Source: a virus. Taken from it: a DNA stretch of 34,839 nucleotides. The stretch is taken from positions 1 through 34,839 of the IMG/VR virus record IMGVR_UViG_3300027896_002498; one strand, 5' to 3'. The notes beneath the pieces were generated by a model. It was not told the DNA's origin and made no database searches. It saw nothing but the letters and a program-made list of their open reading frames with translations. Shown here one piece after another: positions 10,183-33,950 of this stretch (its first letter is position 1; every line of letters starts with the position of its first letter). A program made the translations under genes and the position numbers.

Positions 10183-10216
10183 AGGCTAGGTCGAAAAAAG
10201 GATGATGGAGCATAAA

Positions 10217-10747: not shown

Positions 10748-10923
10748 CCTTGCTCACACAATATTTGAATGCTCCGTGGAAAAACAAAATTGCCGTTATA
10801 GTTATTGTTGCTGAACTTCCCGTTGTTGAACTTGCGGATTTGCTTTCGTGGATTTCCGATAAATTATATTCTTTTGTAAATTTTATGCAACGATGGATGG
10901 AATTTTGGACGGGGTTAAGATGA
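10744..10923 (+). CDS. 59-residue protein between the two ThDP halves
   Basis: ATG 10744 overlaps the stop of the PYR gene (ATGA) and its own TGA at 10921-10923 overlaps ATG 10920 of the next gene (ATGA). Both 4-nt couplings fit this frame exactly, which is the main reason to call it. The product begins MTLLTQYLNAPWKNK, then has a hydrophobic stretch (IAVIVIVAELPVVELADLL) and an aromatic amphipathic tail (SWISDKLYSFVNF..RW). It does not resemble the short linker that normally joins PYR and central domains. It could be a membrane-associated or subunit-bridging peptide. No family recognised. Confidence 0.55.
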   Translation: MTLLTQYLNAPWKNKIAVIVIVAELPVVELADLLSWISDKLYSFVNFMQRWMEFWTGLR

Positions 10924-12014
10924 GTGGGATTCCAGAACTTCTTGAAGTATGGCTTGGGTCAACACGTCCCGTGATTTTGATAGGAGCGGGGGCAAGAAAG
11001 GCGTCTTCTGAAATTATCTCTTTCGCTGAGAAATGGGACATCCCTATCCTTACGACGTGGAATGCAATTGACTTGATTGAGTGGGAGCATCCTTTATTTA
11101 TAGGTAGGCCCGGAATTGTAGCAACAAGGGCGGCGAATAACGCTTTACAGGGTTGTGACCTATTATTGTCAATTGGGGCTAGGCTAGACCCCAACACGAT
11201 TGCTTTCAAGTATGAAAATCTTGCTCCGAGAGCAAAAAAAGTCTTAGTGGACATAGATTTGAACGAGGCATTAAAAATACCCAATCTTGATTTATATGTT
11301 CACATGGACTCTTTGAAGTTCATTCAGGAATTGAATAAACATGAATTTATCTCGTATGGAGAATGGCCAAAAAGGTGTCAGGATTGGAAGTCTAAATACG
11401 GTCCAGAAATACACACTATTACCGTTCAACTATGCGAGGAATTGGGAAAGTCTTTAACTTCAGACGATGTACTTGTCTTAGATACTGCCGGTGGAGCAGG
11501 GGGGACCATCTTCCCCGCCTTTTTCAAGCAACCAAAGGGAATGAGAGTCATTTTATCATCTTGTGGTTTGGGTTCAATGGGAGGAGGAATACCGTCTGCC
11601 ATTGGCGTATCTCTTGCTTCTCAAAAGAGAGTGATTCTTATTGAGGGCGATGGGTCTTTCTGTCAGTGTATGCAGGAATTAGAGGTAATACATCGTCTGA
11701 ATTTGAATATTATTATATTCATCATTGAAAACGGGGGTTATGCCTCTACTCGTAGTTCTGAGATGAGGGCGTTTGGCAGAGAGGGGCAAGGAAGGTCGTT
11801 CCCAAATATCTTAGATATTGCAACAGCATTCAAAATAAACTCGGACGAGATATATAGTTTTATCCCCAATTATATTTATATGGCTTTGTTTACTGGCATT
11901 CATGGACCGCACTTATTTGTTGTCCATGCACCGTCAGAAGAGTTGGCGTTGCCAAGAGTTCTTTTCGATGGAAAGGGACGATTGGATTTGATGGCACCCT
12001 ACGAGGCAAAATGA
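10920..12014 (+). CDS. ThDP-dependent enzyme, central and PP (C-terminal) half
   Basis: 364 residues from ATG 10920 (ATGA overlap); an in-frame ATG at 10893 lies inside the small upstream gene. Residues 1-135 are the central Rossmann-like domain (STRPVILIGAGA, TTWNAIDLI, FIGRPGIVATRAANN, LLLSIGARLD), which match LPS-locus ThDP proteins closely. Residues ~165-330 are the PP domain with CGLGSMGGGIPSAIG, the GDG motif at 243-245, and ENGGY (Asn271 as Mg ligand), spaced as in active enzymes. Together with the 10217 gene all cofactor-binding residues are present, so a split but potentially working carboligase or decarboxylase is inferred. Confidence 0.87.
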   Translation: MSGIPELLEVWLGSTRPVILIGAGARKASSEIISFAEKWDIPILTTWNAIDLIEWEHPLFIGRPGIVATRAANNALQGCDLLLSIGARLDPNTIAFKYENLAPRAKKVLVDIDLNEALKIPNLDLYVHMDSLKFIQELNKHEFISYGEWPKRCQDWKSKYGPEIHTITVQLCEELGKSLTSDDVLVLDTAGGAGGTIFPAFFKQPKGMRVILSSCGLGSMGGGIPSAIGVSLASQKRVILIEGDGSFCQCMQELEVIHRLNLNIIIFIIENGGYASTRSSEMRAFGREGQGRSFPNILDIATAFKINSDEIYSFIPNYIYMALFTGIHGPHLFVVHAPSEELALPRVLFDGKGRLDLMAPYEAK

Positions 12015-12985
12015 GAGTATTACTGACCGGACACGATGGTTATATAGGCAGTGTTATGAGGTCTATGCTGACGGGGGCTGGACATACAGTTGTCGGACTG
12101 GACACGTTCTATTTCTCTGACAACAAACACGGTGCGCTAGATTTAGACGTTCGCGAAGTAAGAGGAATTGAGGGGGGTGACGCCATAATCCATCTAGCCG
12201 CTCTTTCAAATGACCCAATGGGAGAAATGAATCCAGAACTCACTTACAATATCAATCGTTGGGCTGCTGGCAATCTCGCGTGGTTTGCAAGAGATTCTGG
12301 AATAAAACGATTTTTGTTCTCTTCTTCTTGTAGCGTTTATGGAATATCAGATGGATTTGCTGATGAGCAATCGCCTATTGATCCATTGTCTGCTTATGCA
12401 ATCTCAAAGGCTAAGGCTGAAGAAGATTTGATGAAACTAGCCAATGATGATTTTAGCCCAGTCATTCTTCGTAACGCTACTGCCTTCGGTTGGTCGCCAA
12501 ACTTTCGCTCAGACTTGGTTCTTAATACCATGACATGCGCTGCTTATTCTCAAAATTACATAAACATTGTTGGAGATGGGACACAGTGGAGGCCGCTGGT
12601 TCACGTGCAGGATATTTGTAAAGCCTTCTTGCTTGCCCTGGAAGCACCTAAAGAAAAAGTCCATAACCAGATATTCAACATTGGAACGAGGAATTATCAA
12701 GTAAAAGCCGTTGCATCAGCGGTTGCAGAATTGTTTCCGAGTTGTATCGTAACTAATTCAGAGAACAAAGACATTGACCCACGGAGTTATCAAGTTGATT
12801 TTAGTAAAGCAAAGAGAGAACTTGGGTTTACCCCAAAATGGAGTCCGTATGATGGAGTAGTGGAACTGAAAAATATGTTCGATACTCTCGATCTGCACGA
12901 TTTCTCTGGCTATGTAAGACTTGCCAAACTAAAATCATTGATGGAAGATGGGAAGATAGATAAAGATTTGAGGTGGATAAAATGA
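12011..12985 (+). CDS. NAD-dependent epimerase/dehydratase (extended SDR)
   Basis: 324 residues, ATGA-coupled to the ThDP gene. The N-terminal Rossmann motif is G7-H-D-G10-Y-I-G13, followed by HLAALS at 61-66, the catalytic Ser in SSSCSVYG (104-111) and Y129-A-I-S-K133. GDGTQWRPLVHVQDI and FNIGT are typical sugar-nucleotide binding segments of GalE/RmlB-like enzymes. Length is normal. It probably epimerises, dehydrates or reduces a nucleotide sugar; the exact substrate cannot be read from sequence. In comparable LPS loci such an SDR follows the ThDP protein. Confidence 0.88.
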   Translation: MRVLLTGHDGYIGSVMRSMLTGAGHTVVGLDTFYFSDNKHGALDLDVREVRGIEGGDAIIHLAALSNDPMGEMNPELTYNINRWAAGNLAWFARDSGIKRFLFSSSCSVYGISDGFADEQSPIDPLSAYAISKAKAEEDLMKLANDDFSPVILRNATAFGWSPNFRSDLVLNTMTCAAYSQNYINIVGDGTQWRPLVHVQDICKAFLLALEAPKEKVHNQIFNIGTRNYQVKAVASAVAELFPSCIVTNSENKDIDPRSYQVDFSKAKRELGFTPKWSPYDGVVELKNMFDTLDLHDFSGYVRLAKLKSLMEDGKIDKDLRWIK

Positions 12986-13686
12986 ATGTGTTATGTACCG
13001 GAGGGACGGGGTTTTGTGGGACATGGATGGATAAAACCAAGCCCGAAAATGTCTTTTTTGTTATGCAAGACCATGACGCATACAAGACAGATTGGGAGAC
13101 GGCAAAGTGGGACTATATCGTTCATCTTGCTCCAATATCTCCCAAACGGATATTGGATTATGCCCAAGAGCATAAAACCCGCGTCCTCTTTGCCTCTTCT
13201 GGTGCTATCTATGAAGGACAAGGCAAATACGCCGACGATAAGCGCACCTGGGAAAAGGAATGTCTTGATAGTGGAGTAGATTGTGTAACCGCCCGTCTAT
13301 TTGCCACATCTGGATTGCCTTTTCAAAAAAATAAAGCTCTTTCAGCGTTTGTTGAAAATGCCTTAAAGGGTGAAAAACTACAAGTGTGGGGAAATGGATT
13401 AACGGTGCGTTCTTATTTATACGGGGAAGAAGTTGGTAAGGCGTTTTGGAGAATATTATTAGACGGTGAGGGTGCCTACAATGTCGGTTCAATGACTCCG
13501 TATTCTATGGGGGAGGTTGCCGAAATGGTTGCGTCCATTGTCCCCGCCAAAATAGAATATGTAGAACATGAAGAAATGCCGACTCCTATTTATTATGTTC
13601 CAAGAAACATAGAGCCTATGTTAGCGTTGGGATGCAAAGAAATTGTTCCTCTAAAAGAAGCAATAAAAAGGATGGTAAAAGGATGA
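12982..13686 (+). CDS. Short SDR, nucleotide-sugar reductase/epimerase-like
   Basis: 234 residues from ATG 12982 (ATGA overlap; an in-frame GTG at 12973 was rejected). TGGTGFCG gives the nucleotide-binding loop, ASSGAIYEG the Ser region, and Y83-A-D-D-K87 the catalytic pair. It is about 70-90 residues shorter than usual extended SDRs: the strands after the first loop are compressed (PENVFFVMQDHDAYKTDWET directly precedes YIVHLAP). The C-terminus (YNVGSMTPYSMGEVAEMV) keeps the family pattern. It likely acts after the preceding SDR in the same sugar pathway; specificity is unknown. Confidence 0.8.
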   Translation: MNVLCTGGTGFCGTWMDKTKPENVFFVMQDHDAYKTDWETAKWDYIVHLAPISPKRILDYAQEHKTRVLFASSGAIYEGQGKYADDKRTWEKECLDSGVDCVTARLFATSGLPFQKNKALSAFVENALKGEKLQVWGNGLTVRSYLYGEEVGKAFWRILLDGEGAYNVGSMTPYSMGEVAEMVASIVPAKIEYVEHEEMPTPIYYVPRNIEPMLALGCKEIVPLKEAIKRMVKG

Positions 13687-13961
13687 AGGAAATACCATTA
13701 ACACAAGGAAAGGTTGCAATAGTTGACGATGAAGATTACAAATGGCTGAACCAGTGGAAATGGTGCATGGATTCTGGAGGATACGCTAAAAGGTCTGAGA
13801 AAAGATCTGAAACAAAAAAACAATATCGCAGAGAAATACTTATGCACCGTTTTATAATGGATTCTCCCGAAGGAAGGGAAGATGCAGCCAGCGCCTATGA
13901 CGAAATGGCAAAAAAATTACACGGAAAATATGCAAGCCTAAATTTCACAGAAGGAGTATAA
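13683..13961 (+). CDS. Remnant of an HNH-AP2 homing endonuclease (internal deletion)
   Basis: 92 residues, ATG 13683 coupled to the SDR stop (ATGA). The start (KEIPLTQGKVAIVDDEDYKWL.QWKW, then ILMHR) is the hallmark beginning of phage HNH-AP2 endonucleases. The end (EDAASAYDEMAKKLHGKYA.LNF) is the final helix and strand of an AP2 DNA-binding domain. The part that should lie between residues ~63 and 65, namely the HNH catalytic core (DH.N...DNR..NLR) and most of AP2, is missing. The frame stays open across the junction, so a short protein may still be made, but it cannot be a nuclease. It points to past invasion of the operon by a mobile endonuclease. Confidence 0.72.
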   Translation: MKEIPLTQGKVAIVDDEDYKWLNQWKWCMDSGGYAKRSEKRSETKKQYRREILMHRFIMDSPEGREDAASAYDEMAKKLHGKYASLNFTEGV

Positions 13962-13964
13962 AAA

Positions 13965-14981
13965 ATGCGCGCATGTCCTGTTTGTGGCAGTATGAATCGA
14001 GTAGAGGGTTGGACAATGGAATTTGTTGTTCCCGATGGATGGGAATTGCCGACAAAAAATACAATATGTTTATGCGATGATTGTCAAATGATTTATTATT
14101 CCAGCGACAAAACGCAAAAAGACTACGATGCGTATTATCAATTCCGATACGATTCGGAACTTACTCTCTCTGGAGAGGAAACCCATCATAGACTTGACGA
14201 CCTGATTGATTTTGTCATGGATGCCGAGGAAAGAAAAGATGCTCGTATTGTAGATTTCGGAGGGACGGAGGGATATGTCGAAAGACAATTACGGAAATTT
14301 GGATATAAAGACGTAACTACTGTGAACGTGGGCGATGAATTGCCCGAAGGAATAGACTTGCTTATCGCCTCCCATGTCCTGGAGCATGTCTATGATTTGA
14401 AACCGGTGATGGATAAACTGACCTCCCATCTCAATGCCGGGGCTAAATTTGTGATAGACATACCCGATTCTGCTCAAATGGTCAGGATTAACACCTTGCC
14501 CATCATGGATTATTCCCAAAAGCATGTTAATCACTTTACTACTCGTACTATCAATGCCTTGTTAAAACAATACGATTTTTATCCTACAACTATTCATAAT
14601 TACGTTGTCCTGAGCCACAATTATCCTGCTTTTCGTATCCTGTACGAAAAACCGAACGAGGTGGGAACTTACTACCGCGCTAAAGAGTGGTGCGAGTCCA
14701 ATATTGAAGCCAAGATAAAGAAGATGAAAGGAGTTTCCGGACCCGTAGTGGTGTGGGGGGTTGGGGATATTTGCCTTTTGCTTTTAGAGCAAGTGCCTCT
14801 GGATGTTATTCACTACGTAGATATTGACCCCACTTTCAAAAATCAGACCATTAAAGGTATTCCAGTTTACGACCATTGTGAATCAGATGCCCCAATTGTG
14901 GTAATTGCCCAGATGCAAAAGCAATTAGTAATTGATAGTATCGCCAAAGCCGGACTATCTAATAAAGTTATCGTGATATGA
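13965..14981 (+). CDS. Sugar C-methyltransferase-like SAM methyltransferase
   Basis: 338 residues with a good AGGAG site. Three parts are visible: an N-terminal zinc-binding segment (C4-P-V-C7 and C37-D-D-C40), a class I SAM domain with IVDFGGTEG (95-103) and the HVLEH motif near 137-141, and a C-terminal Rossmann-like lobe (VVVWGVGDIC; VIHYVDIDP; VVVIAQM). This layout matches the TylC3/NovU-type C-methyltransferases that add a branch methyl to nucleotide-activated keto-deoxysugars. Such genes neighbour YerE-like ThDP proteins and SDRs in O-antigen loci, consistent with its position. Confidence 0.85.
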   Translation: MRACPVCGSMNRVEGWTMEFVVPDGWELPTKNTICLCDDCQMIYYSSDKTQKDYDAYYQFRYDSELTLSGEETHHRLDDLIDFVMDAEERKDARIVDFGGTEGYVERQLRKFGYKDVTTVNVGDELPEGIDLLIASHVLEHVYDLKPVMDKLTSHLNAGAKFVIDIPDSAQMVRINTLPIMDYSQKHVNHFTTRTINALLKQYDFYPTTIHNYVVLSHNYPAFRILYEKPNEVGTYYRAKEWCESNIEAKIKKMKGVSGPVVVWGVGDICLLLLEQVPLDVIHYVDIDPTFKNQTIKGIPVYDHCESDAPIVVIAQMQKQLVIDSIAKAGLSNKVIVI

Positions 14982-15805
14982 AAGTCGCTCTTTGTCTTTA
15001 CGGCCAACCGAGAACCTATTCGTTCTGCGCCCCATCCGTCTATCGCCATTTAATAGAACCGTACAAACCGGACATTTTTCTTTGTACAGACGATTCCGGG
15101 CCAGACATGCAGGAAACCTATAAACCTACCAGGATGGAAATATATTCTCCCGAAGAACAAATGGCAAAGATCGGCGATAGGATAAATTGGTACGGGGATG
15201 AAGTACCAAATCCCGGCCCGTATAAAGACTACCCCATCCATCCCAAGGGCGATCTAATGCTTCTTTTCAAAATGTGGCGCTGTAGGGAGATGATGCGAGA
15301 ATATGAAACCAAACACGGGGAATACAATGTTGTTATTGGTACAAGATTCGACGCCAAGTTTTTATCCATTCAGCCTATTACCAAACCTAAAAAGAACACG
15401 ATTTATATCCCGAAAGTAGATGCTTTTGGAAAAGAAGCGGTAAATGGTATCCATTGGGGAATGGGCTATTGTATGCACATCTGGTGGTGCGATTCAGTTA
15501 CCGGAGCTACTACGCTTAATTCTTATAGTTGGTCAGATGAATGTTACCGAGAAACAGGACAATGGTGCGGGGAATCAATGACAAAGCACTTCTTCGACAA
15601 GATGAAAATAAACGTGGCATATACAGATGTCAAGTTCATGCTTATTCGAGGAACAAGCGACAATCCTTTAGAGGGATTGCCGCCATGGAATCCTCTGTCA
15701 AAGACATGTCATCCCGAATACTTGGCAAAACCGTGGGAAAAAGATATTATTAAACATACTCCCCATAAAGAAGAACCTCTTCACGCCGAGGGATTTTTTT
15801 GGTAG
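14978..15805 (+). CDS. Glycosyltransferase-like protein (MKVALCLYGQPRTY family)
   Basis: 275 residues, ATGA-coupled to the methyltransferase. The start MKVALCLYGQPRTY and PDIFLCTDDSG match a family of surface-polysaccharide proteins beginning K.ALC.SGQ.R.Y. that occurs among glycosyltransferases. VVIGTRFDAKF provides an R.D pair as a possible donor-binding acid. Residues 150-200 are Trp/Cys-rich (MGYCMHIWWCD). There is no membrane segment. It is the last gene of the plus-strand operon, and its stop abuts the stop of the convergent gene. Transferase activity is inferred from family resemblance and context. Confidence 0.65.
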   Translation: MKVALCLYGQPRTYSFCAPSVYRHLIEPYKPDIFLCTDDSGPDMQETYKPTRMEIYSPEEQMAKIGDRINWYGDEVPNPGPYKDYPIHPKGDLMLLFKMWRCREMMREYETKHGEYNVVIGTRFDAKFLSIQPITKPKKNTIYIPKVDAFGKEAVNGIHWGMGYCMHIWWCDSVTGATTLNSYSWSDECYRETGQWCGESMTKHFFDKMKINVAYTDVKFMLIRGTSDNPLEGLPPWNPLSKTCHPEYLAKPWEKDIIKHTPHKEEPLHAEGFFW

Positions 15806-16630
15806 TTAAAATATTTCAAATTCTGACCATCTAAAGTCATTTGGATGCCTTACGTGCAGGAGCATCTCGTTATACTGTAATGGGGGACGTTCTACTTGAC
15901 GCATTGAACTGCCTACATAGTGATATGCCTGTGCGTCAGTATCAATGAAAACTTTATGCCCATTCTTTGCAATGGTCATGCAAAGGTCTACATCCTCAAA
16001 GTAACCAGTTCCATAGCCTTCAAAGAACCCACCGGCTTGCTCAAAGACCTTGCGCCTGACTATAAAAAACCCGCCACAAATAGATGCAACCTCTCTGGAA
16101 ACACGGCACTTGGGATTATCCGCTGACCAACCCAAGAATGGATGGGTTATTGCCCCACGTATAGTTATCCCATGCCCGACGTGTTGTACAGTACCAGCGG
16201 GACCGGATTCGTTTGAGTCTAACGGGAATAGCGTTTTTATGCCACATATCCCGATGGTCTGGTCATTCATCCGCTTTATAAGCGTACTAAGACAACCCGG
16301 CTTCAAAATCACATCATCGTGGAGGAAAAAAGCTAAGGGTGCGTGTCCAGAACGAATAACGCGATTTGCTCCCATCGGAAAACCAAGCCTCTGCGGAGAG
16401 GAGGTTCTACGGGTCATCGGGGGCAAATCTGTCAGGATTCTCTCCTGTTCTACAATACTTTGTGGAGGAACTGGGCCATTCTGAAAGACAATTAACCGAG
16501 ATGGGACGGTCTTTATCTCCTCTTTAATGGCATTAACACACTTCTCGAATATCTCCATCTTGACCATTCCACAGGTCAAGAGACAGACATCAACTAGGTT
16601 TTGGGGTGCTTGGCTGTTTGTGCGCGACAT
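15806..16630 (-). CDS. Family 2 glycosyltransferase (rhamnosyltransferase-like)
   Basis: 274 residues. LVDVCLLTCG opens the GT-A fold, LGFPMGANRVI is the G...G.N...nucleotide-binding turn, HDDVIL is the DXD-type metal site, and GYFEDVDLCMTIAKNGHKV is the acceptor/catalytic ED motif followed by a Y.H end. Start ATG 16630 overlaps the upstream GT4 gene by 41 nt; no shorter plausible start is present. It transfers a sugar to a glycan acceptor, probably in the host cytoplasm; no transmembrane helix is seen. Confidence 0.87.
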   Translation of the reverse strand: MSRTNSQAPQNLVDVCLLTCGMVKMEIFEKCVNAIKEEIKTVPSRLIVFQNGPVPPQSIVEQERILTDLPPMTRRTSSPQRLGFPMGANRVIRSGHAPLAFFLHDDVILKPGCLSTLIKRMNDQTIGICGIKTLFPLDSNESGPAGTVQHVGHGITIRGAITHPFLGWSADNPKCRVSREVASICGGFFIVRRKVFEQAGGFFEGYGTGYFEDVDLCMTIAKNGHKVFIDTDAQAYHYVGSSMRQVERPPLQYNEMLLHVRHPNDFRWSEFEIF

Positions 16631-17735
16631 CTTTTATTCCTTTGAGTAATTGTTTTACCGACTTATCCCAAGTCCGATTCAATACGTACTTTCGGGCCTC
16701 TTCTGCGCGAGGGAGTTTCCCCTCTGCTATGTCTGATAAGGCAGAAGCACATTTAACTCTATCCACCATGTCCCTGCGAGAATTCCCCCACGTATCAATA
16801 AAGGTATATTCTGGATGAACCAAAAAACCTCTATGTTCTTTCAGGTGCTCCAATAATGCTCCAGTTTTTGTAGCAATCACCGGAATTCCTACCGACATAG
16901 CCTCCAGAACGGGCATACCTAGTCCTTCGGCCTTACTGGTCAATAAAAATACATCTGCCGCCGCAAACAACCCCCAGAGCATCTTGAATGGCATTCCCCG
17001 CTCGAATATGGTCAGTTCCTTCAGCACATTGTGCTGCGAGGCTAAGTCTCTTAATCTATATCCGACAAATTGATTTTCTCTAGTAACAAGCCAGTATTTG
17101 AAAGGTTTGTCATAATGCTGTTTGAATATCTCCAGAGAGGCCAACGCCCCCCATAGATTCTTGCGTTCCTGATTGTCCGCTACGGTCAGAATGACAAATT
17201 CATCCTTTATCCCGTAACTCTCGCGTAATTTCAGTCTTTCTTCTGGAGTGGGGGGCTTCCACGCCTCTGTGTCTACTCCAATGGTAAGATGTTCAGCCTT
17301 TATTCCCATCTTTTCACATTCTTTGACCGCAAACTCGGACATGACATAGCATTTATCCGCTTGAGACAGATAGGTTGCCCAAGTTGCACAAAGAGGCCCA
17401 TTTTCCATAGGCGTGATACAAATATAGGGAATAGATAGCCTTTTTGCCGTGTTGATTACAGGGTCTTGATTTGGAATGTCGGCAAGCCCTATCACAACGT
17501 CTGGATTGAATAGGATTTTCATGTTCTGAAGCATGGCAAAAGCATCGTTCATTGCCAGACAAGGATAGAGGGAAAACTTGTAAGGATGCTCTGATCCATT
17601 ATAGGAAAGTCCAATAATCTTGACCTCATGCCCCAAGTCTGCCAACCTGCTTCCAAGGGCGGTGGTGATGGATGCGTAACCAGAGCCGGTTGCGTCCATG
17701 TCTGAAATCATTACGATGCGAAAACTTTGTCCCAT
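16590..17735 (-). CDS. Family 4 glycosyltransferase
   Basis: 381 residues with an AAAGGA site upstream of ATG 17735. It has a GT-B fold: DMDATGSGYAS in the N-terminal domain, TVADNQERKN (~184-193) as the donor-phosphate region, and E270-GLGMPVL-E278 (EX7E) with the following PVIATKTGA. All GT4 hallmarks are intact and length is normal. The basic, Pro-rich tail (AHKQPSTPKPS) is probably disordered. It overlaps the next gene upstream by 25 nt. Confidence 0.9.
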   Translation of the reverse strand: MGQSFRIVMISDMDATGSGYASITTALGSRLADLGHEVKIIGLSYNGSEHPYKFSLYPCLAMNDAFAMLQNMKILFNPDVVIGLADIPNQDPVINTAKRLSIPYICITPMENGPLCATWATYLSQADKCYVMSEFAVKECEKMGIKAEHLTIGVDTEAWKPPTPEERLKLRESYGIKDEFVILTVADNQERKNLWGALASLEIFKQHYDKPFKYWLVTRENQFVGYRLRDLASQHNVLKELTIFERGMPFKMLWGLFAAADVFLLTSKAEGLGMPVLEAMSVGIPVIATKTGALLEHLKEHRGFLVHPEYTFIDTWGNSRRDMVDRVKCASALSDIAEGKLPRAEEARKYVLNRTWDKSVKQLLKGIKDVAHKQPSTPKPS

Positions 17736-18718
17736 TCTTTTAGTATCCTTTCGGGGCCGAAACGAGATAACGACAGTTTTGTAAACACATCTCTTGAAAC
17801 AGATACATTTTCTGGAGAAGTATTTAATGCTTTAATAACTATATCTGCAAATTCATCTTTTCCAGAAAACCATCCGAAATTTGTTGTATCAAGCGCACCT
17901 ATTTTAGGAGTAACAGGGAGAACTCCCGCGCATTCCGCCTCTGCCACGGTATAACAAAAAAGTTCGTCATAGTTGCATGGATATGGCAATACTTCTGCCT
18001 TCAATTGTTCTTGTACCAATTCTGCCCTTCGTATCGCCCCCCTCATGGTAACATTTTTAAGTCCGGGGATTTTGGCACAAAATTCATTGTTCATCGGCGC
18101 ACCAATGCCCCACAGTCTGTAATCTGAGGTAATTACAAGGCTTGCATCTGGAACCGCGTTAACTATCCTCCTCCACATAGTCAACAACTCACCCAACCCT
18201 CTTCCCGGAACAGAAGTGAAGATACAACGATGGGGAATCTTGACAATATCCTGTTCATACTCCCACGTTCTTACCGGCAAATCTATGACGGTTGTGTTCT
18301 CAATCCCGTATTCTTTTTTGAAGTAATCAGCGTGAAATTGTGAAATTGTCACAATTTTATCGACATGGGGGGCAAAATCCTTGAACGAACCAATAGTATA
18401 CTGGTCACAACTCCACCAAATTTTCAGTCCTTTGGCACCATCAACTTTGTAGTTGGGGCTGCGAAAAACAATAAGAGCGTCTCTATTTTGGCTCCCATCA
18501 AAGTCGCCTATGTTGGATTGATGAAAGGGGGATTTGTCAAAGCCCCTGGGATTGTTATATAGATTTACTTCGTGCCCCGCTCTTTCCCATAATTCACACA
18601 TGGTAAGAAGAGCACTTTCGGCTCCGCCCACGCCAATTTGGTGCGGATCGTCTCCCGTAAGGGTTGCCATCGTACAACCAAGCGGAGAGCCATCCGAGGT
18701 AAGTATGTCAATCTTCAT
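17711..18718 (-). CDS. GT-B glycosyltransferase (GT4-like)
   Basis: 335 residues; ATG 18718 is chosen for its ATGA overlap with the upstream stop. GGAESALLTMCELWERAGHEV is the acceptor-domain glycine turn typical of GT4 enzymes, followed by KIWWSCDQ and the SQFHADYF helix. The C-terminal domain carries FTSVPGRGLGELL and E-LFCYTVA-E (EX7E) in YDELFCYTVAEAECAG. Likely a second retaining transferase extending the same glycan as its downstream neighbour. Confidence 0.85.
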   Translation of the reverse strand: MKIDILTSDGSPLGCTMATLTGDDPHQIGVGGAESALLTMCELWERAGHEVNLYNNPRGFDKSPFHQSNIGDFDGSQNRDALIVFRSPNYKVDGAKGLKIWWSCDQYTIGSFKDFAPHVDKIVTISQFHADYFKKEYGIENTTVIDLPVRTWEYEQDIVKIPHRCIFTSVPGRGLGELLTMWRRIVNAVPDASLVITSDYRLWGIGAPMNNEFCAKIPGLKNVTMRGAIRRAELVQEQLKAEVLPYPCNYDELFCYTVAEAECAGVLPVTPKIGALDTTNFGWFSGKDEFADIVIKALNTSPENVSVSRDVFTKLSLSRFGPERILKEWDKVFAS

Positions 18719-19626
18719 TGTTTGCATCCCTTCTTTATCGTATCCACTGTGTATTCTCTCAATTCTGGTGTTATCGTTTTCCCTATATCAATCCAGAAAG
18801 ACTTGTTTTTTACGATACTAACATTCTTTGGCGTTCCGACTAATTTATACCCTCCATAGTCCTGAATGGGTAATTGATGGGTTGGAACACCCTTTTTCTT
18901 TAAGTATTGTAACAGCAATTCTCTCTCCCCATGATAAATGACATTGAATCCCTGCCAGTTTGGACTTGCCATGTGGTGAGGCTCCGGGAGATAAAAATAG
19001 TTACTTAGTTCTTCCTTAAAGGTTTTGTGATAGTATTCCCAATTCTCTCGATGGACTTTTATATTATTAGGAATAGATTCAGGCACATACTCACACCGAC
19101 AAAGGCTTCTAATTATCTCGGATTGACAAGGACTGTCTGTTAAAATGATTGCGTTGTTTCTAAAAGAAAAGATGGACAAATCCCCAAAATTACCTATCGG
19201 CTGCCCCTCGTAAGTCCCCGTACACGTACCTCCAATGGCTGCCCCACAATCAAAAATCCCCACAATGTAACTACCCTCCAAAACTCTATCTGAGATGTAT
19301 TGAATAGCGATGGGATTACCCAGCGTATGTTGGAGCAAAATCACCCCCGTGTTCTTGTTTACTGCCTCTTCCACCAGACAGGGATTGGCGTTGTAGGTCG
19401 GTAAATCCACATCCACGAAAACCGGCACTAACCCAAGTTGTAAGATATAGGGGAGCGTATTCCCAATCACAGAAACGATAACCTCTTGTCCGGGTTTCAA
19501 CCGCCTCTTGTTCTTTTCCGACATAGCCGATAAAAGAGCCGTGTAATCCGGTCTTGCACATATAACACCGTACATCCTTCTGCTTTGTTTGGCAATCAAA
19601 CACTCAAATTCATCTTTATTGTTCAT
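18715..19626 (-). CDS. RfbH/E1-like (DegT family) protein lacking the PLP-site residue
   Basis: 303 residues, ATGA-coupled on both sides. RRLKPGQEVIV, PVFVDVDLPTYNAN and H100-TLGNP are signatures of the RfbH/E1 subgroup (CDP-4-keto-6-deoxyglucose 3-dehydrase), and D126 is the Asp that contacts the PLP ring nitrogen. Where aminotransferases have SF..K and E1 enzymes SF...H, this protein has S154-FRNN-A159. The N-terminal Gly-Ser-Ser phosphate loop is replaced by ARPDYTAL. It is also 70-130 residues shorter than RfbH. It is therefore probably not a normal PLP enzyme: either a pseudo-enzyme partner or an altered activity. The frame is intact and codons look normal. Confidence 0.82.
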   Translation of the reverse strand: MNNKDEFECLIAKQSRRMYGVICARPDYTALLSAMSEKNKRRLKPGQEVIVSVIGNTLPYILQLGLVPVFVDVDLPTYNANPCLVEEAVNKNTGVILLQHTLGNPIAIQYISDRVLEGSYIVGIFDCGAAIGGTCTGTYEGQPIGNFGDLSIFSFRNNAIILTDSPCQSEIIRSLCRCEYVPESIPNNIKVHRENWEYYHKTFKEELSNYFYLPEPHHMASPNWQGFNVIYHGERELLLQYLKKKGVPTHQLPIQDYGGYKLVGTPKNVSIVKNKSFWIDIGKTITPELREYTVDTIKKGCKQ

Positions 19627-23855: not shown

Positions 23856-25037
23856 CTATCCGAGTTCAGTACAACCCGCATACGACCTGCCCGAGAAGAC
23901 ACTACGATAAGCAGACTGGGCGCAATACTGCTTGATAATTAAGGCCGTCTTGGTCCATACTTCAAACTGTATCGCTGTGCACAGGGGCACGAGGTCAATC
24001 AGGCTCAATGGAATCTGCGTCGCTCGATACACCAGCGGGACACCATTGTGCTGCATCCGTAGAGCGTATAGAGTGGAGGCAAATGAGCCGTTGCCCATAT
24101 CTGTGCGGGCGAAGTTCACATCCGAAACAACGGTCAGGCGTCCGATGGACGTATTGACGAATCCGGCGAAGTTGAAGCCCGGAATCAGTCGATTGCCGTC
24201 GTTCTGGAAGACGACCTGTGAACCCTGGAAGCCCAACTGGAAGTAGGCGGCCAGCATCTCTTGAATAGCCTGAGGATGGCCGAATACATGGGTGGGCTTG
24301 GCGCAAGTTTCTGCACAGAAGCGATCAAAGCCGATAGCGGAGAAGGAACCTGAAACGGTCATACCGGATACGGAAGTACCTGTATTGGTATGTGCGCCAT
24401 TGGCGGGGACTACGAGGGCTTCGATACCGTCGAACTCCAAGACACGCGAAGTAGCGTTTCCTTCAGCCAGGAGACGGTCCCAAGCATTCATAACTAAAGC
24501 CATGCTTAGGCGAATCTCTTTGACTTTCAGGGAAGCGATTTCAGCGCGGGTGAAAGTAGTGGCATCAGAAGCACCGGGAAGTCCTTCACCGGCTGCGTAT
24601 CCGCCCATCAGGGCGTTGATACCCCAGCCAGCCGCAATGGAGGCCATGGAGTGCAGAATATCGGAGATGGTCAAGCTCTTTTTCGCGCCGATGTTCTTTA
24701 GAACTACGGTGGAGTTAGAACCATCATGGGCGTACTCTTCCGGGCAAGTTCCATCCGCAAAGGCGATATAGTTTGAGCCACTTACGAAGGCAAGTGAGGT
24801 CATTTCACGCCAATGCTCTTCCTTCAGGGAAGTGCGGATTTCCGGGATGTTCTGGAAAAGACTAATATCCTCACACAGGTCGAGAATTTCGGTATGGTCG
24901 AGCGGGGTGGGGAATTGCGCGGCGAAATCGGTAGGAGTAACTACGTTAACTCCAATAGGATCGGTAGCGCGCTGTACAAGTGCTTCGGCAACCGGGGCGG
25001 GTTGGCCGTTGGTAACATCTAAGCCAATGTCAGGCAT
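23856..25037 (-). CDS. Major capsid protein, HK97 fold
   Basis: 393 residues; ATG 25037 has a perfect AAGGAG site. It follows the protease/scaffold gene directly, as HK97-type capsids do. The N-terminal arm (VTNGQPAPVAEALVQRATDP) is followed by a helix-rich middle (LTISDILHSMASIAAGWGINALMGG; IASLKVKEIRLSMALVMNAWDRLL) resembling the spine helix, and a beta-rich P/A-domain region (PGFNFAGFVNTSIGRLTVVSDVNFA). The C-terminus (TALIIKQYCAQSAYRSVFSGRS) is typical of capsid ends. Length fits a mature subunit of about 390 residues without a long delta domain, consistent with scaffold supplied by the upstream protein. Confidence 0.85.
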   Translation of the reverse strand: MPDIGLDVTNGQPAPVAEALVQRATDPIGVNVVTPTDFAAQFPTPLDHTEILDLCEDISLFQNIPEIRTSLKEEHWREMTSLAFVSGSNYIAFADGTCPEEYAHDGSNSTVVLKNIGAKKSLTISDILHSMASIAAGWGINALMGGYAAGEGLPGASDATTFTRAEIASLKVKEIRLSMALVMNAWDRLLAEGNATSRVLEFDGIEALVVPANGAHTNTGTSVSGMTVSGSFSAIGFDRFCAETCAKPTHVFGHPQAIQEMLAAYFQLGFQGSQVVFQNDGNRLIPGFNFAGFVNTSIGRLTVVSDVNFARTDMGNGSFASTLYALRMQHNGVPLVYRATQIPLSLIDLVPLCTAIQFEVWTKTALIIKQYCAQSAYRSVFSGRSYAGCTELG

Positions 25038-27416: not shown

Positions 27417-27612
27417 TCTTAGGCGGGCGTCCGGGCTTGGGCTTTTCTGGAACAAGCACGTACAAGACCTTGAAGAACCCTGCCGCCCTCTCCTGGTCAT
27501 TGGTTGGGCCTAGATAAACTACGTGTCCAACTTCCCAACCTTCCGGCAATACTACTTCTGGATCAGAACCGGGAGCGCCAAGAGTACGAACCATGTTATG
27601 AATCTTTGACAT
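27409..27612 (-). CDS. Small basic-tailed protein
   Basis: 67 residues; ATG 27612 has AAGGAG 8 nt upstream, overlaps the portal end by 17 nt and the next gene by 8 nt. The body (VVLPEGWEVGHVVYLGPTNDQERAAGFFKVLYVLV) is a small beta domain. The C-terminal PKPGRPPKNE contains a GRP core like an AT-hook, suggesting contact with DNA. Found between portal and protease; no family recognised. Confidence 0.6.
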   Translation of the reverse strand: MSKIHNMVRTLGAPGSDPEVVLPEGWEVGHVVYLGPTNDQERAAGFFKVLYVLVPEKPKPGRPPKNE

Positions 27613-29596
27613 TTTCAATCTCCTTATCAAGTATCTTCTCTAAGATTTGTTGACCGGCTGTTTCGGCTGCGGTCATTAGTTGTGGATAAGCCTCCATGAA
27701 CTTTTGCGAGACTTTTTTCACAATCTGTACTTTATTATCACTTTTTTCAACCGTAGGGTCAATAGTGAGTTCGTCTATCATATCTGACATAATAGTGGTA
27801 GCCATAATAGATTGCGCGATGTCTGTGGCTTCTGTAGAGGCTTGTGACATATATTTTTGAATATCAATAGTGCGAATTTGTTCTTCAAGGTCTACAAAGT
27901 CTGCATCCTGATATACAAGATAGGCTTTTTCCCTGAGAGCGTCCAAGACACCAGACGTATCTTCCGAGTTGAATCGTATTTCTCCAAGTCCGTTATTCTT
28001 TAGCGAACCTTGAATAGTCCGGCGACGCTTTTCAACGTCCTCAATCATACGGGCTTCTGGATCGCGCCACCAAAGAGCGTCTGCGATGTGTTTCTTCCAC
28101 GCCTCTACTTCTTCAGGCTTCATGTTCTTAATGGTGGTTATAAAGTCGTGGATAGGATAATAAGCCTGTTTGACGGTTTTATCGACCTGTTTCTTCAGGT
28201 CAATAATCGCCTGAGAAGCCTGCACAGAACTGACTTCGCCGCGTCCGCCATTTTCCGCCGATACCTTCTCACCTAAAAGACCGGGAGAAGTGGTATTTCC
28301 AGAGGCGGGCCAATCTACTTTACTTTCGTCTAGCGTTTCGGGAACAGAAACGGTAACTAAGCCGTCTACAAGAGCCTGTGCGCGAAATTCTTGGGGCGAA
28401 AATTCATGGTTTCTAATAAATATTTCACTGGCCTGTGCATTGGCTAATCTAGCGCGTCCCTGAGCAACATTCTGGTCAGAATCGAAGTCAATCCACGTAA
28501 ATTCAAGTTCTTCGGGTAAAATCTTATCAAAGAAGGACTTGAACTTCTTTTTGAGAACAGAATTGATATTCTTTTTAGTGTTTCTCTCAGACCTGATTGT
28601 ACCGGAAAGGGTTTCCCCGCCATTAGAGCTACCGCCCATCCCAATATCAGAAGGACTCATTCCATATCCAGCACAAATTATTTCAACATATCTGGCAGTA
28701 ACACGATCAAACATCAATTCATTTGGATTCATGTTGAACGGAATCCACTCAGCCTTGGTAGTGTGTTCATAAAGAACAGGAATTTTCATCGGGTCGGTAC
28801 CGGCAAATAAGTCCTGTGCTTCTTTCATCCACTCCAAAGCGGTATCTTTCTCAGTATCTCCTAAGTCTAAAATACCAACCTGAGGGGTATTAGTAAGAAG
28901 TTCAGCATAATACTTATCGCCGCGCTTCATCAATTCCAAAGCTAGGTAAATCTGTTCAGGAGGAGCCATTCCCCATCCCTCGAACCAAATATCGGGACGA
29001 GGACTCATATATTGACGAACTATGGAATAAGAAGGAAATGCGATTGGCTCAATCGGCATATTGGGAACGCGCTGAATTACCGGAAAGTCTGCGTTCAAGG
29101 AAGGTAATAGCGTTCCACCATCCAAACAACGAAGCCATATTATCTTTCCGTTGGGATCATCGTTCTCACGGCCAACCTCTGCCGCCATCCCAAATGGCAG
29201 GTCTAAGATGTCCTTGCCAAGCCATTCCAAGCGACCAGTAAAATCAAGCCCATCATAAAGCCCCTCGTTATCCAATAGACGAGTATTGTATTTTATTTTA
29301 GCTTTCAACTCATCGGTTTTATTGGAATCTCTGGCTACAATTTTCCAATCCAGGGCTGTCAATTGATTTATGGCGGTATTTCTACAAACTGTGGCAACCG
29401 GAACAGAAGCAACAAAGCCACGCCAAATGGCCGCGGATTGCCAATTCGGAGCCATCCAAGACGGTACGCTTCTGAATAGGAAGTTAAGTAACGGGCCGCC
29501 GGGACTCGATCTTTGTCCCGGAAGAACCGTCTGAACTAGCATATCTGTAGGTTGGAGTTGTATAGCCTTTGTTTTGGTTTTCTGTTTAGTAGCCAT
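27596..29596 (-). CDS. Portal protein
   Basis: 666 residues. Typical portal segments occur in order: PNWQSAAIWRGFVASVPVATVCRNTAINQLTALDW-type N-terminal region (here residues ~50-85), a clip/stem region with FAGTDPMKIPVLYEHTTKAEW, and GGSSNGGETLSGTIRSERNTKKN, the portal crown-side loop. Long C-terminal helices (~440-666) are longer than in most portals. It forms the dodecameric ring for packaging. The start has no Shine-Dalgarno site; TATAAT sits exactly 7 nt before ATG, suggesting a leaderless transcript. Confidence 0.88.
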   Translation of the reverse strand: MATKQKTKTKAIQLQPTDMLVQTVLPGQRSSPGGPLLNFLFRSVPSWMAPNWQSAAIWRGFVASVPVATVCRNTAINQLTALDWKIVARDSNKTDELKAKIKYNTRLLDNEGLYDGLDFTGRLEWLGKDILDLPFGMAAEVGRENDDPNGKIIWLRCLDGGTLLPSLNADFPVIQRVPNMPIEPIAFPSYSIVRQYMSPRPDIWFEGWGMAPPEQIYLALELMKRGDKYYAELLTNTPQVGILDLGDTEKDTALEWMKEAQDLFAGTDPMKIPVLYEHTTKAEWIPFNMNPNELMFDRVTARYVEIICAGYGMSPSDIGMGGSSNGGETLSGTIRSERNTKKNINSVLKKKFKSFFDKILPEELEFTWIDFDSDQNVAQGRARLANAQASEIFIRNHEFSPQEFRAQALVDGLVTVSVPETLDESKVDWPASGNTTSPGLLGEKVSAENGGRGEVSSVQASQAIIDLKKQVDKTVKQAYYPIHDFITTIKNMKPEEVEAWKKHIADALWWRDPEARMIEDVEKRRRTIQGSLKNNGLGEIRFNSEDTSGVLDALREKAYLVYQDADFVDLEEQIRTIDIQKYMSQASTEATDIAQSIMATTIMSDMIDELTIDPTVEKSDNKVQIVKKVSQKFMEAYPQLMTAAETAGQQILEKILDKEIENVKDS

Positions 29597-30050: not shown

Positions 30051-31619
30051 TCAACTAGTAGATTTCCTCAAACTTCCAATCCCCATCTGTTTCTTTTCTG
30101 GCTCAATCTTCTGCCCGATGTGGATAAAAGTCATCTTGCTCCATTTCCGTATGGGGGCGATAGACAAGCGCGCTCCGGTTACTGACGTTATGCGGTCATC
30201 ATGGGCGTTCTTTTGAGGGAACATATCCAATTCACTAAAGAAGCCATCATTCCACGGGCCTCTGACAATATACCAAAGCCCCTGAGCGGCTTCTGCGAAC
30301 CATGTATTCGCCGCCATTACTCTATCCCCATCCTTCTTGGGGTCATGTGGTCTTACGGTAAATCCTAAAGGCTTGACCAATAAGCCGAGTTCGGCAACTT
30401 GGTTTTTGCCACCAGAACCAGGTTCCTGCTCAACATAGATAGGAATTTGAGTACCGTCTTGAATAGCTGTGTTTCTAAAGTTCTCTTTTATCTTTTCCCA
30501 CTCCCACTTGCCATATACCTGATTTTCGATACAGAAATGCTCTTTCTTGTCATCATACGATACTAAAGAGCCTACGGTTTCATCGGGGTCAGTTCCTACT
30601 TTCTTCTCGGAAGCCGCCAAGTCCCAATACCTATACCTACCTCTCCACTCCATAGGCTTATCAAGTACATGAGATACGCCAGTAGCGGGATTACGGGTGA
30701 ACCAAATTCTGTCTCCTAAGGCCCCTTCTTCGTTGGCGGCATAGCCTTCTACTTCTCGTTTTCTCAAATAACCAGACGGGAAAGAAGATATTAGCGTAGC
30801 ATAAAATATTGGGTCAAGGTTCTTCTGATTCTCTTCCAGACTGACATGGAAGGACTCTACCAACTCCCGTCCTATCATATCTGGAACATCTTTCAATAGC
30901 TTATAAACCTCATCCGGTATCTCTTTCCTGTCAAATAATGCGGCAATCCACGAAAGAGTGTCTGCTGGAGTCGTTGTAGTGAATCTCTGTGTCATAGAGC
31001 CAATACGGACACCAGCGATAGCATTCTTCCAAGCAATTCCGGTCTTATCTCTACGAGATTCATCGTACCAGAGCCAGTTTACATTATGCCCACGCCCGGA
31101 TTCCGGGTCCCTAAGTCCACGGCAATATAAAACTGCGCCATTTTGAAACACAATGGAAAACGGGCGGGTTACATCCCAAGACTCCGACCTACGAACTCTA
31201 TGCTTGGGAATGACCATTTCCCACGGAATCCAACTACGGAGTTCCGGCCATGTAGATGTTTTGAAGTTCTCCAAGTCTGGATTTACGACTATCCCTGTTC
31301 TGCCTTCGCGTATCTTCCTTAGTGCCTTCTGCGCCCCCGCTGCCGTCTTACCAGAACCACGACCACCCTGTAATGCGACAAAGACCGCCTCAGAATTAAT
31401 AAAGGCTAGTTGTTCTCCGGCTGGATCATAGGCTTTACCAGCCCCGTTCCTGCGAAAGAAGCCGTTCTCGTCTATATTCCATTTGTCAGACCAGGCAATA
31501 TTGGATTTATCTACTTTAGGTATATCCAGCCCCCTTGCCTTCATCTCGGTTAGAAGGGCAAGTAGTTCTTTCTTATCCTTATCACTCAGGTCTTTCCGTA
31601 TCGTCTTGGTTTGTTGCAT
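30051..31619 (-). CDS. terL: Terminase large subunit
   Basis: 522 residues; it cuts DNA and pumps it into the prohead. The ATPase domain has Walker A GGRGSGKT (85-92), Walker B LWYDE (D186, E187) and coupling motif TTTTP (~215). The RNase-H-like nuclease domain has D333 in YWDLAA, E397 in IYVEQEPG, and the D474-D475 pair in HDDRI. All catalytic positions are present. ATG 31619 overlaps the small subunit by 38 nt. The C-terminal end is basic, as usual for portal docking. Confidence 0.94.
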   Translation of the reverse strand: MQQTKTIRKDLSDKDKKELLALLTEMKARGLDIPKVDKSNIAWSDKWNIDENGFFRRNGAGKAYDPAGEQLAFINSEAVFVALQGGRGSGKTAAGAQKALRKIREGRTGIVVNPDLENFKTSTWPELRSWIPWEMVIPKHRVRRSESWDVTRPFSIVFQNGAVLYCRGLRDPESGRGHNVNWLWYDESRRDKTGIAWKNAIAGVRIGSMTQRFTTTTPADTLSWIAALFDRKEIPDEVYKLLKDVPDMIGRELVESFHVSLEENQKNLDPIFYATLISSFPSGYLRKREVEGYAANEEGALGDRIWFTRNPATGVSHVLDKPMEWRGRYRYWDLAASEKKVGTDPDETVGSLVSYDDKKEHFCIENQVYGKWEWEKIKENFRNTAIQDGTQIPIYVEQEPGSGGKNQVAELGLLVKPLGFTVRPHDPKKDGDRVMAANTWFAEAAQGLWYIVRGPWNDGFFSELDMFPQKNAHDDRITSVTGARLSIAPIRKWSKMTFIHIGQKIEPEKKQMGIGSLRKSTS

Positions 31620-32136
31620 CGACTGCTGTAGCCTCTATGGGTTCTTCGCCCATGAATTTCTTCAGTTTCTTTTCCAATTCATCATTAGATGCCGTACTTA
31701 ACTCTGCGAAGTAAGCTGCCCAACCGAGCAACTTATCCTGTAACTCAGCACCCTTGCCTATAGCTCTAATAGCGTCTGCCGAGTTATCAATATTGTGTTC
31801 GTGCAGATAAGACATCCCCATATCTACCAACTCTTCCCCCACTTTAGCCATCTTCTGAATAATTCCCTGCCGCTGTTTTATTATTTCAATATCGCCAGCC
31901 TGTTCAACCTGACCATCTAGAGCATCGGCATGTCCCGCCCAATCGTCAGTCGAGTGCCATTCCTGGATAGTGCGAAGACTGGGAGAGCGGACGCCCTCCG
32001 GCAATTCTTCTTTCATAATATCGGCTATCTGTTTATATTCAGGCTTACCCAGTTTATACCATAAAGCAAATGCCTGATCGTGCATCTCCTGGGGATAGGC
32101 AATACTTTTTGTTACTGCTCTGCGCTTATCGGCCAT
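31582..32136 (-). CDS. terS: Terminase small subunit-like DNA-binding protein
   Basis: 184 residues; ATG 32136 overlaps the ferritin stop (TAATG). The N-terminal HTH region (HDQAFALWYKLGKPEYKQIADIM, SLRTIQEWHSTDDW) is the usual DNA-recognition layout of small terminases. A long coiled helix (IEIIKQRQGIIQKMAKVGEEL) follows for oligomerisation, and the C-terminus (DELEKKLKKFMGEE) is acidic to mediate large-subunit contact. Position directly before the large subunit supports it. Confidence 0.8.
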   Translation of the reverse strand: MADKRRAVTKSIAYPQEMHDQAFALWYKLGKPEYKQIADIMKEELPEGVRSPSLRTIQEWHSTDDWAGHADALDGQVEQAGDIEIIKQRQGIIQKMAKVGEELVDMGMSYLHEHNIDNSADAIRAIGKGAELQDKLLGWAAYFAELSTASNDELEKKLKKFMGEEPIEATAVDATNQDDTERPE

Positions 32137-32603
32137 TACTCCCCTAACTTTTCGTCAATCAGCCGCCACTCGTCCGAAGCCTCAAGCATTTGGATAATAT
32201 CCCAAACCTCGCGCTCGGAAAGTCTTTGCTCTTCCAAAAAGAACATAAGGAACTGAATTACCAGATATTCATTTTCTGCTTGCGCTTGATTATAAAGTGC
32301 TTCAATGGCTTCGGTAGTCTTTTGTTCGGCAGCATAGGCATTCTTGAAATAATCGGGTAATTCTCCAACTATTCCATCAATTTTCCGAATTGAATCGTAA
32401 ATTGGAGTGATATTGCGGTCTACCAGGAACGAGGCAACCTTATCGGCATGGGAAGTCTCGTCATTTGAAGACTTACGCATGAACTTAGCCGAGCCACCCC
32501 AGCCTTCATTTTCCAGTTCATCCGCCATTGACCGATAGACGGCGGAATTGGTTCTTTCCAAAGTCAACTGCTGTTGTAACAAAGTTTCAACTAATGCGAA
32601 CAT
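32136..32603 (-). CDS. Ferritin (non-haem, FtnA-like)
   Basis: 155 residues. ATG 32603 follows the upstream stop at once (TAATATG) and has GGAGGT; an in-frame ATG at 32624 lies inside that gene. The four-helix bundle aligns with E. coli FtnA nearly without gaps. Ferroxidase ligands are at E16, E49, H52, E93 and Q126, each one position before FtnA E17, E50, H53, E94 and Q127. Tyr23 is also kept. The third iron site is partly lost: FtnA E129 and E130 correspond to Leu128 and Ser129. The product should oxidise Fe(II) and may form a 24-mer cage, though cage formation cannot be judged here. It sits in the packaging operon, directly before the small terminase, which is unusual for a phage. Confidence 0.87.
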   Translation of the reverse strand: MFALVETLLQQQLTLERTNSAVYRSMADELENEGWGGSAKFMRKSSNDETSHADKVASFLVDRNITPIYDSIRKIDGIVGELPDYFKNAYAAEQKTTEAIEALYNQAQAENEYLVIQFLMFFLEEQRLSEREVWDIIQMLEASDEWRLIDEKLGE

Positions 32604-32604: not shown

Positions 32605-33156
32605 TTACCTCCACTTACTGACATTTTGAGTTCTTACTTCGTCGGGAAATTCAACAACCCATCCCAAACTTTCAAGAGCCTTGACTATATCGCCATCGTG
32701 CCTTGCAATGAATTCGGCTGGATTAGCGGTATAACTGTGTGCGTCATCATAAATTTTTTCAATGTGCCTGTTTGCCATTTTCCTATCCTCGACTGTTTCA
32801 TGGATAAGATTAAAGGCGGCTTCGTCCAAATGCAAGTCACTCAACCAGTAGTTATTATAATCCAATAAGGGCCATGGATAACGGCTGTGATTAGCTCCCT
32901 CTGTCAAGTCTTGCCACACATTTGTCCTCATGGAGGCAAAGTCTACGATATAGGCAATTATGGGGTCGCCATCCGGGTCTGTTCCTTGCATATAAACACA
33001 AATTCGAGGATCGTGGTCTTTCAGCCACATCCAGTTAGCTTTATTGGGGTCTGGGTTTATTTGAGGTGGCATGGGTTCAAACTCAGCCACCTTACGATGG
33101 ATTATATTCTTAGACCTTAGTGCGCTGGATGGAGTAATTAATACAGGGACTTTCAT
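32605..33156 (-). CDS. Hypothetical protein, 183 residues
   Basis: ATG 33156 has no ribosome site (CTCCTCC precedes it), but TATAAT stands exactly 7 nt upstream, as for the portal gene. The protein is alpha/beta with many Trp and Asp (NKANWMWLKDHDPRICVYM; IAYIVDFASMRTNVW), and the C-terminal part (YDDAHSYTANPAEFIARHDGDIVKALESLGW) is helical. No catalytic motif recognised. It leads the ferritin-terminase run and probably shares its transcript. Confidence 0.68.
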   Translation of the reverse strand: MKVPVLITPSSALRSKNIIHRKVAEFEPMPPQINPDPNKANWMWLKDHDPRICVYMQGTDPDGDPIIAYIVDFASMRTNVWQDLTEGANHSRYPWPLLDYNNYWLSDLHLDEAAFNLIHETVEDRKMANRHIEKIYDDAHSYTANPAEFIARHDGDIVKALESLGWVVEFPDEVRTQNVSKWR

Positions 33157-33163: not shown

Positions 33164-33169
33164 ATTATA
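33164..33169 (-). promoter_or_regulatory. -10 element of a leaderless-type promoter
   Basis: Minus-strand TATAAT at 33169-33164 is followed by 7 nt (CTCCTCC) and ATG 33156, the same spacing as at the portal gene. The -35 is weak (TATCAA at 17 nt). Would start the ferritin-terminase transcript at the initiator codon. Confidence 0.5.
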
Positions 33170-33174
33170 CACTC

Positions 33175-33543
33175 TTATGCACCTTTTTGATATGCTGGAA
33201 TTACGCCGCCGCCCCGTTTATTAAACGCGTAATTTTTGTGTAGCATATTGTGATGTTCTGGACAAACATACACCACTTCGCCCCATCTTTCGTCCCCCAA
33301 GTGCTTATAGGTCAAGTGGTGGCAGTTTAGGTTGTGTCCATTATGGGCACACCCATTTACTTCACAAGTCCAATTAGCCTGACTACCAATATAATTTCTG
33401 ACTTCCTGCCAATGATCTGATTTCAAATACCCATGATATTCAGACTTACTTTCACGGGGACGAAACACCCAATCAGTTACCAGGAGAGCGACAATGGCAG
33501 AGAACGTATTCTGCCATCCAAAACCACCTCTGTATCTTCTCAT
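33175..33543 (-). CDS. HNH endonuclease
   Basis: 122 residues; ATG 33543 overlaps the upstream stop (ATGA). The HNH zinc-finger core is intact: C60-EVNG-C65, H75-H76 in LNCHHLTYKHLG, C94 and H97-H98 in VCPEHHNMLH. In many HK97-type cos phages an HNH protein works with terminase in DNA cleavage; here it is upstream of the terminases, separated by two genes. It could equally be a free-standing homing nuclease. The N-terminus is basic. Confidence 0.8.
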   Translation of the reverse strand: MRRYRGGFGWQNTFSAIVALLVTDWVFRPRESKSEYHGYLKSDHWQEVRNYIGSQANWTCEVNGCAHNGHNLNCHHLTYKHLGDERWGEVVYVCPEHHNMLHKNYAFNKRGGGVIPAYQKGA

Positions 33544-33950
33544 TTCAACTCCTCTATAGAACAATAAACAGGTATGCCATTTTTGTTCGCATATTCAACT
33601 TCTGCATCGGCTCCACTACTCTTTCCAGGTAATCTCAATAATCCATCACACTTACTGAGCCAGTTCAGGTCATAGTTCAACCAGAACTCATACTCATGCG
33701 GAGCGATCAGGTGCCAGAACAAAGTAAGATGCGGGATGTAGGGAATTAATTCCAATTTTACCAATTCTTCCGCCGCCAGAACTGAATTCCTGACATTAAT
33801 TACCGTATCGCCATTGGAATAGGGACCAGCAATATAGATATATCGTTTATCCTTAGCAAATGCATCGGGGAATTTCTCAAGAAGAAGCCTTTTCTTGAAT
33901 TCATCAAATGTTTCTAATTTCTCTGTAGCCAAAAAATCCGGTAATGTCAT
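33540..33950 (-). CDS. DUF4406 / nucleoside 2-deoxyribosyltransferase-like protein
   Basis: 136 residues. IYIAGPYSNGD (~38-48), a helix of VRNSVLAAEELVKL, IPHLTLFWH, and CDGLLRLPGKSSGADAEVEYA make the full signature of this family, whose relatives cleave or transfer the base of (deoxy)nucleosides. The catalytic-type Glu in the GADAEVE segment is present. In phages these proteins likely act in nucleotide salvage. The N-terminal ~30 residues are an extra charged helix. Confidence 0.8.
   Translation of the reverse strand: MTLPDFLATEKLETFDEFKKRLLLEKFPDAFAKDKRYIYIAGPYSNGDTVINVRNSVLAAEELVKLELIPYIPHLTLFWHLIAPHEYEFWLNYDLNWLSKCDGLLRLPGKSSGADAEVEYANKNGIPVYCSIEELK

Follow-up and report, generated by a model that had tools for sequence, protein, structure and literature searches.

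A non-heme ferritin gene beside the terminase genes of a small phage clade

Gene order at the ferritin locus

We analyzed a 34,839-nucleotide stretch of viral DNA (the window), in which a ferritin gene lies on the minus strand directly ahead of genes for DNA packaging and head proteins. The features of this region are as follows.

23856..25037, minus strand: probable major capsid protein, assigned from position and conservation, with no family match
27596..29596, minus strand: portal protein (phrog_11117, 3.8e-6)
30051..31619, minus strand: terminase large subunit, terL (phrog_979, 1.1e-30; PF03237, PF17289)
31582..32136, minus strand: terminase small subunit, terS (phrog_6299, 1.4e-5; homologues at the equivalent position in relatives)
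32136..32603, minus strand: ferritin, 155 amino acids, non-heme type (PF00210, alignments, AlphaFold2 model, dN/dS)
32605..33156, minus strand: ORF183, between the HNH and ferritin genes in the window and relative G004 only, with no Pfam or PHROG match
33164..33170, minus strand: promoter-like GTATAAT box ahead of ORF183
33175..33564, minus strand: HNH endonuclease-like gene (phrog_119, 3.1e-8; phrog_5200, 2e-7), at the border of a cargo slot described below

We placed the ferritin start codon at 32603, based on the arrangement GGAGG-TAAT-ATG and the conservation of this start in all relatives; the program-made open reading frame opens upstream, at 32624. A good ribosome-binding site precedes the gene (GGAGGTAATATG). 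At its other end, the TAA stop codon overlaps the ATG of terS (TAATG), and terL and the portal gene follow on the same strand.

Close relatives in IMG/VR comprise five contigs representing four distinct phages, as G002 and G003 are one phage assembled twice. G002 has identical ends of 141 bp that G003 spans, which yields a complete genome of ~64.0 kb; the remaining contigs measure 14.7 kb (G001), 65.5 kb (G004), and 6.7 kb (G005). All five carry ferritin, terS, terL, and portal in this order on one strand. The first-pass annotation had reported the TAATG coupling and proposed seeking the same gene pair in viral metagenomes: the pair is present in all four phages, and the overlap was read correctly in the window and recurs in G001 only, while in the three other relatives ferritin and terS are separated by 140 nt (G005), 300 nt (G004), or 442 nt (G002) holding one or two small ORFs. 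The recurrence of these junctions in independent contigs rules out an assembly join. The homologue of ORF183 in G004 is 49% identical, and none was found in G001, G002, or G005.

A conserved peptide of ~45 amino acids containing two likely membrane segments (e.g., MKIKVVNTIVTLFFLVPGFGLLFWKGGPWVALGMALIVIGASVRFTK) is encoded between ferritin and terS in G002, G004, and G005 and is absent from this position in the window and G001. Directly ahead of ferritin, at a conserved distance, G001, G002, and G005 have a GTATAAT-like box. We set aside a phage-wide promoter motif, because GTATAAT does not occur clearly more often in these genomes than chance predicts (4 occurrences in the window versus 5 expected); the conserved position of the box is suggestive of a promoter. 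No terminator-like site was found between ferritin and terS. If active, a promoter directly ahead of ferritin could give this gene a timing different from that of the late operon.

Several other features of these genomes deserve mention. Upstream of the HNH gene is a nucleoside 2-deoxyribosyltransferase-like gene (33540-33950, minus strand; phrog_355, 2.1e-19; DUF7768/DUF4406). The structural region of the window contains a sugar/glycan cluster (10202-19626), kept in the same gene order in G002 and G004, that encodes a TPP enzyme, two epimerases, a methyltransferase, glycosyltransferases, and a DegT aminotransferase. The TPP-dependent enzyme is split on the plus strand into an N-domain gene (10202-10747) and a gene for the central and C domains (10893-12014), and the same split occurs in G002 and G004. 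Another close relative, L001/L024 (IMGVR_UViG_3300047586_000076), carries 28 tRNA genes that together serve all 20 amino acids and are interspersed with HNH-like ORFs, at 2745-6097 on its minus strand; this array lies between terL and portal on the strand opposite to them. The window has no tRNA gene, and a single one is present in each of G002 and G004.

Family assignment and predicted fold

The protein matches the Pfam Ferritin family (PF00210) with E = 2.6e-22, and its score of 79.7 bits exceeds the family cut-off of 24.5 bits, which places it within the family. Among PDB sequences, phmmer returned T. maritima ferritin as the top match (2.9e-13) and E. coli FtnA at 2.7e-11, and the PHROG match was phrog_16594 (3.9e-12). 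The score against the FtnA equivalog model of NCBIfam (NF007638) was 49.4 bits, short of the 178-bit cut-off. Sequence comparison thus identifies the window protein as a ferritin, yet not as an FtnA orthologue by the NCBI cut-off. A chance ORF is ruled out by the Pfam match together with the purifying selection described below. The protein is net acidic (15 K+R versus 30 D+E), a composition unlike that of a DNA binder.

Residues E16, E49, H52, E93, Q126, and Y23 are invariant across the five distinct sequences of the family, the window included. The A- and B-site ligands and Tyr23 align with those of E. coli FtnA, giving the intra-subunit ligand set; as the first-pass annotation had claimed for the five ligands, the alignment indicates that the ferroxidase centre is complete. 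That annotation was also right that E129/E130 of FtnA site C are replaced, by Leu128 and Ser129 in the window. Across the family position 128 is L, T, N, K, or Q, and position 129 is always Ser. The loss of site C counts against the explanation we favor, a ferroxidase iron-storage cage.

Other subfamilies fit less well. In bacterioferritin, Glu127 and His130 (E. coli Bfr numbering) are di-iron ligands; the window protein has Gln126 and Ser129 there, as read through the FtnA alignment rather than from a Bfr sequence. Dps proteins are a different subfamily that forms 12-mers with an inter-subunit site, a helix in the B-C loop, and no E helix, whereas the window protein has the intra-subunit ligand set and a predicted E helix, and its model lacks the B-C helix. 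Nor does it resemble encapsulated ferritin-like proteins of the targeting-peptide class: the chain stops at IDEKLGE, straight after helix E, without a C-terminal targeting extension.

We ran AlphaFold2 on the shallow five-sequence alignment. One of five models was confident (mean pLDDT 78, pTM 0.74); the other four, with pLDDT 41-60, were poor, as expected from an alignment of this depth, and the dependence on a single confident model likewise counts against the favored explanation. The predicted helices (2-32, 36-62, 82-109, 113-142, and 146-154) form a four-helix bundle followed by an E helix. Foldseek returned E. coli FtnA and T. maritima ferritin as first matches (TM 0.93), and VIA-align superposed all 155 residues on these two structures with Z ~23 and rmsd 1.2-1.4 A, so that the comparison with FtnA suggested in the first-pass annotation gave a full-length ferritin match. 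The window protein shares with both the full-length fold, five helices, A/B-site ligands, and Tyr23, but is only 24-28% identical to them; relative to FtnA, its D-E loop is four residues shorter and its C terminus five shorter, in addition to the replacement of E129/E130, and these shortenings too count against the favored explanation. The model points to a 24-mer-type non-heme ferritin, which would be expected to assemble into a cage.

Clade restriction, inheritance, and selection

Identity to the window is 65-80% for ferritin, 70-90% for terL, and 55-72% for terS. For each gene, G001 is the most similar relative and G005 the least similar or tied for that rank; this parallel ranking fits vertical inheritance within the clade. 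Every close relative covering the region, including the complete G002/G003 phage, has one ferritin. The clade is small, comprising five distinct ferritins with that of the window counted.

Wider relatives were gathered using capsid and terL alignments; capsid protein identity is 86-89% in close relatives and 54-66% in outgroups. PF00210 was absent, even at E = 1, from 13 further records (four of 61-69 kb), several of which are short and four of which (L012, L030, L034, and L045) belong to the close clade and lack coverage of the ferritin site; absence is accordingly judged from outgroups that cover the region upstream of terS. Among these, terS immediately follows an HNH gene or an HNH-like ORF in L035, L037, and L047/L048, and L033 has one unrelated 177-aa ORF between HNH and terS. 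In the window clade, the HNH gene is followed by ORF183 in some phages, then by ferritin, by small ORFs in some phages, and by terS. Because outgroups have HNH adjoining terS or another ORF at this site, ferritin behaves as clade-restricted cargo in a variable slot, present in some phages and absent from the same site in their relatives. The first-pass annotation had set the gene's location among head genes against one in a moron region, a contrast that is not supported: the position ahead of terS is conserved within the clade, but the slot is a cargo slot, and outgroups lack the ferritin. Most likely, the gene was inserted between HNH and terS in the clade ancestor; the alternative, that every outgroup lost it, is less simple.

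Where computable, pairwise ferritin dN/dS is 0.07-0.14, with synonymous sites near or past saturation, and these values indicate that the gene is kept by purifying selection. Clade restriction and a variable slot are what one would see if the gene were a functionless passenger of recent transfer, or an artifact of an assembly join. Given the strong selection, the retention of every ligand, and the same junctions in independent contigs, we find this scarcely credible.

Conservation is uneven along the protein: residues 129-155 are 98% identical between relatives, versus 63-71% elsewhere. The share of identical codons is 0.49 in this segment versus 0.51 in the whole gene, so the C-terminal codons vary as they do elsewhere and the constraint acts at the protein level rather than on the nucleic acid, which rules out an overlapping RNA/DNA element as the cause of the invariant C terminus. 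These 27 residues comprise the latter half of helix D together with helix E, a region that lines the fourfold axis in known 24-mer ferritins. Such unusual conservation could instead mark a partner surface, and, with site C lost, the protein might be a diiron oxidase acting on a different substrate, or might have a ferritin fold yet serve as a partner for terminase or portal, rather than being an iron store. Its fold and ligands are nevertheless those of storage ferritins, its best matches being FtnA and T. maritima ferritin, and such a role would surprise us considerably.

The complete ~64.0-kb relative has no recognisable family match for an integrase, resolvase, or ribonucleotide reductase (RNR). 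Given the lack of an integrase or resolvase match in that genome, we rejected lysogenic conversion as an explanation. Scans of genome contigs with the ferritin and capsid protein sequences recovered no relative that would point to a host, and a tblastn search of plasmids for a donor found remote cellular ferritins only (27-32%).

Possible roles and known viral ferritins

We consider it probable that the gene encodes a 24-mer-type ferroxidase ferritin, taken up as ancestral cargo and made late, that lowers Fe(II) and Fenton damage in the infected cell. Having entered the clade ancestor between HNH and terS, the gene would have been kept by purifying selection, and its product would probably be made with the packaging and head proteins late in infection. 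At the E16/E49/H52/E93/Q126 centre, bound Fe(II) would be oxidised, with O2 or H2O2 serving as oxidant, and the iron would be stored as ferric mineral in the cage. Lower free Fe(II) would mean less Fenton chemistry, which may shield DNA during replication and packaging and allow the host to stay productive up to the point of lysis. The shared strand and direct coupling to terS count in favor of this proposal, as do the lack of RNR and integrase matches in the complete relative and the precedents of a viral bacterioferritin (PMC10904782) and of phage Dps (PMC8008677).

The nearest rival holds that the ferritin withdraws host iron or stores iron for the burst, serving supply or host control, not DNA protection. 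Its biochemistry would be the same as for protection, and sequence alone does not separate the two. Giant-virus ferritins have been read as controlling iron during virion production (PMC7136201), and phage infection alters the host's iron genes and its expression of bacterioferritin (PMC10986025), both of which speak for this reading. Against it, the complete relative yielded no iron-dependent RNR; supply of iron to a phage RNR was set aside, none having been found in the relatives. Overall we regard supply or withholding as unlikely, if worth keeping in mind.

Could the ferritin instead belong to the virion, as a structural component or a packaged protein, and load the capsid with iron or shield DNA inside the particle? 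The gene sits in the packaging/head operon and is coupled directly to terS in two phages, and BFVD contains phage proteins annotated as prohead proteases with ferritin/Dps-like folds, although these matches are weak (E 0.02-0.2). The ferritin is nonetheless missing from sister phages whose terS, terL, portal, and capsid genes are homologous, and it has no C-terminal targeting extension; a virion role is unlikely for these reasons, and the acidic composition also speaks against it. We judge it quite improbable, and virion iron loading as raised in the first-pass annotation finds no support in the sequence. A bolder version, in which terminase or portal cooperates with the cage or with the conserved surface at its C terminus, or the virion takes it up, so that the phage would carry or manage iron during packaging, is a distinctly long shot.

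The first-pass annotation described ferritins as uncommon in phages, and our searches agree. Against 50,697 phage records, tblastn gave one significant match for the window ferritin and six for a cellular-type ferritin, all to unannotated records resembling bacterial DNA. We discounted MT838721, MT836766, MT839617, MT838998, OR845001, and OR850087 as phage ferritins, since they are unannotated. The first of these (L007; MT838721.1, 4944 bases), a fecal scaffold named Bacteriophage sp., encodes two ferritins and resembles bacterial DNA. Full storage-type ferritins are thus almost absent from these records, and the window clade keeps one intact beside its packaging genes. The phrase "phage ferritin" was not met in the literature searched.

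Viral ferritin, bacterioferritin, and Dps genes have nevertheless been reported, and the window gene adds to them. Databases already contain phage non-heme ferritins (phrog_16594; BFVD A0A8D9C9X5 and A0A8S5Q7U4). The phrog_16594 family is, like the window gene, a phage-borne non-heme ferritin, and A0A8D9C9X5, a putative bacterial non-heme ferritin from an uncultured marine phage, has a similar fold (TM 0.91) but is only 22% identical. Separately, three BFVD entries from uncultured Caudovirales labeled "prohead protease" (A0A6J7XDU5, A0A6J7WPK9, and A0A6J7WIS1) are possibly Dps domains fused to head proteins. A Bathyarchaeia virus from Vrana Lake sediment carries a bacterioferritin under purifying selection (dN/dS 0.114), likewise a ferritin-family iron oxidase in an uncultivated virus, but of the bacterioferritin type and with a predicted archaeal host; placement in a terminase operon is not described in the accessible part of that report (PMC10904782). 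Gratiaviridae carry Dps and Mn-catalase genes and Lactobacillus phages carry Dps (PMC8008677); these too are ferritin-superfamily oxidative-stress genes, with Dps in another subfamily. The giant-virus ferritins belong to viruses of eukaryotes, unlike the window phage. Beside the viral Dps, bacterioferritin, and tail-iron cases, this clade offers a testable case of a phage that may manage cell iron and Fenton chemistry.
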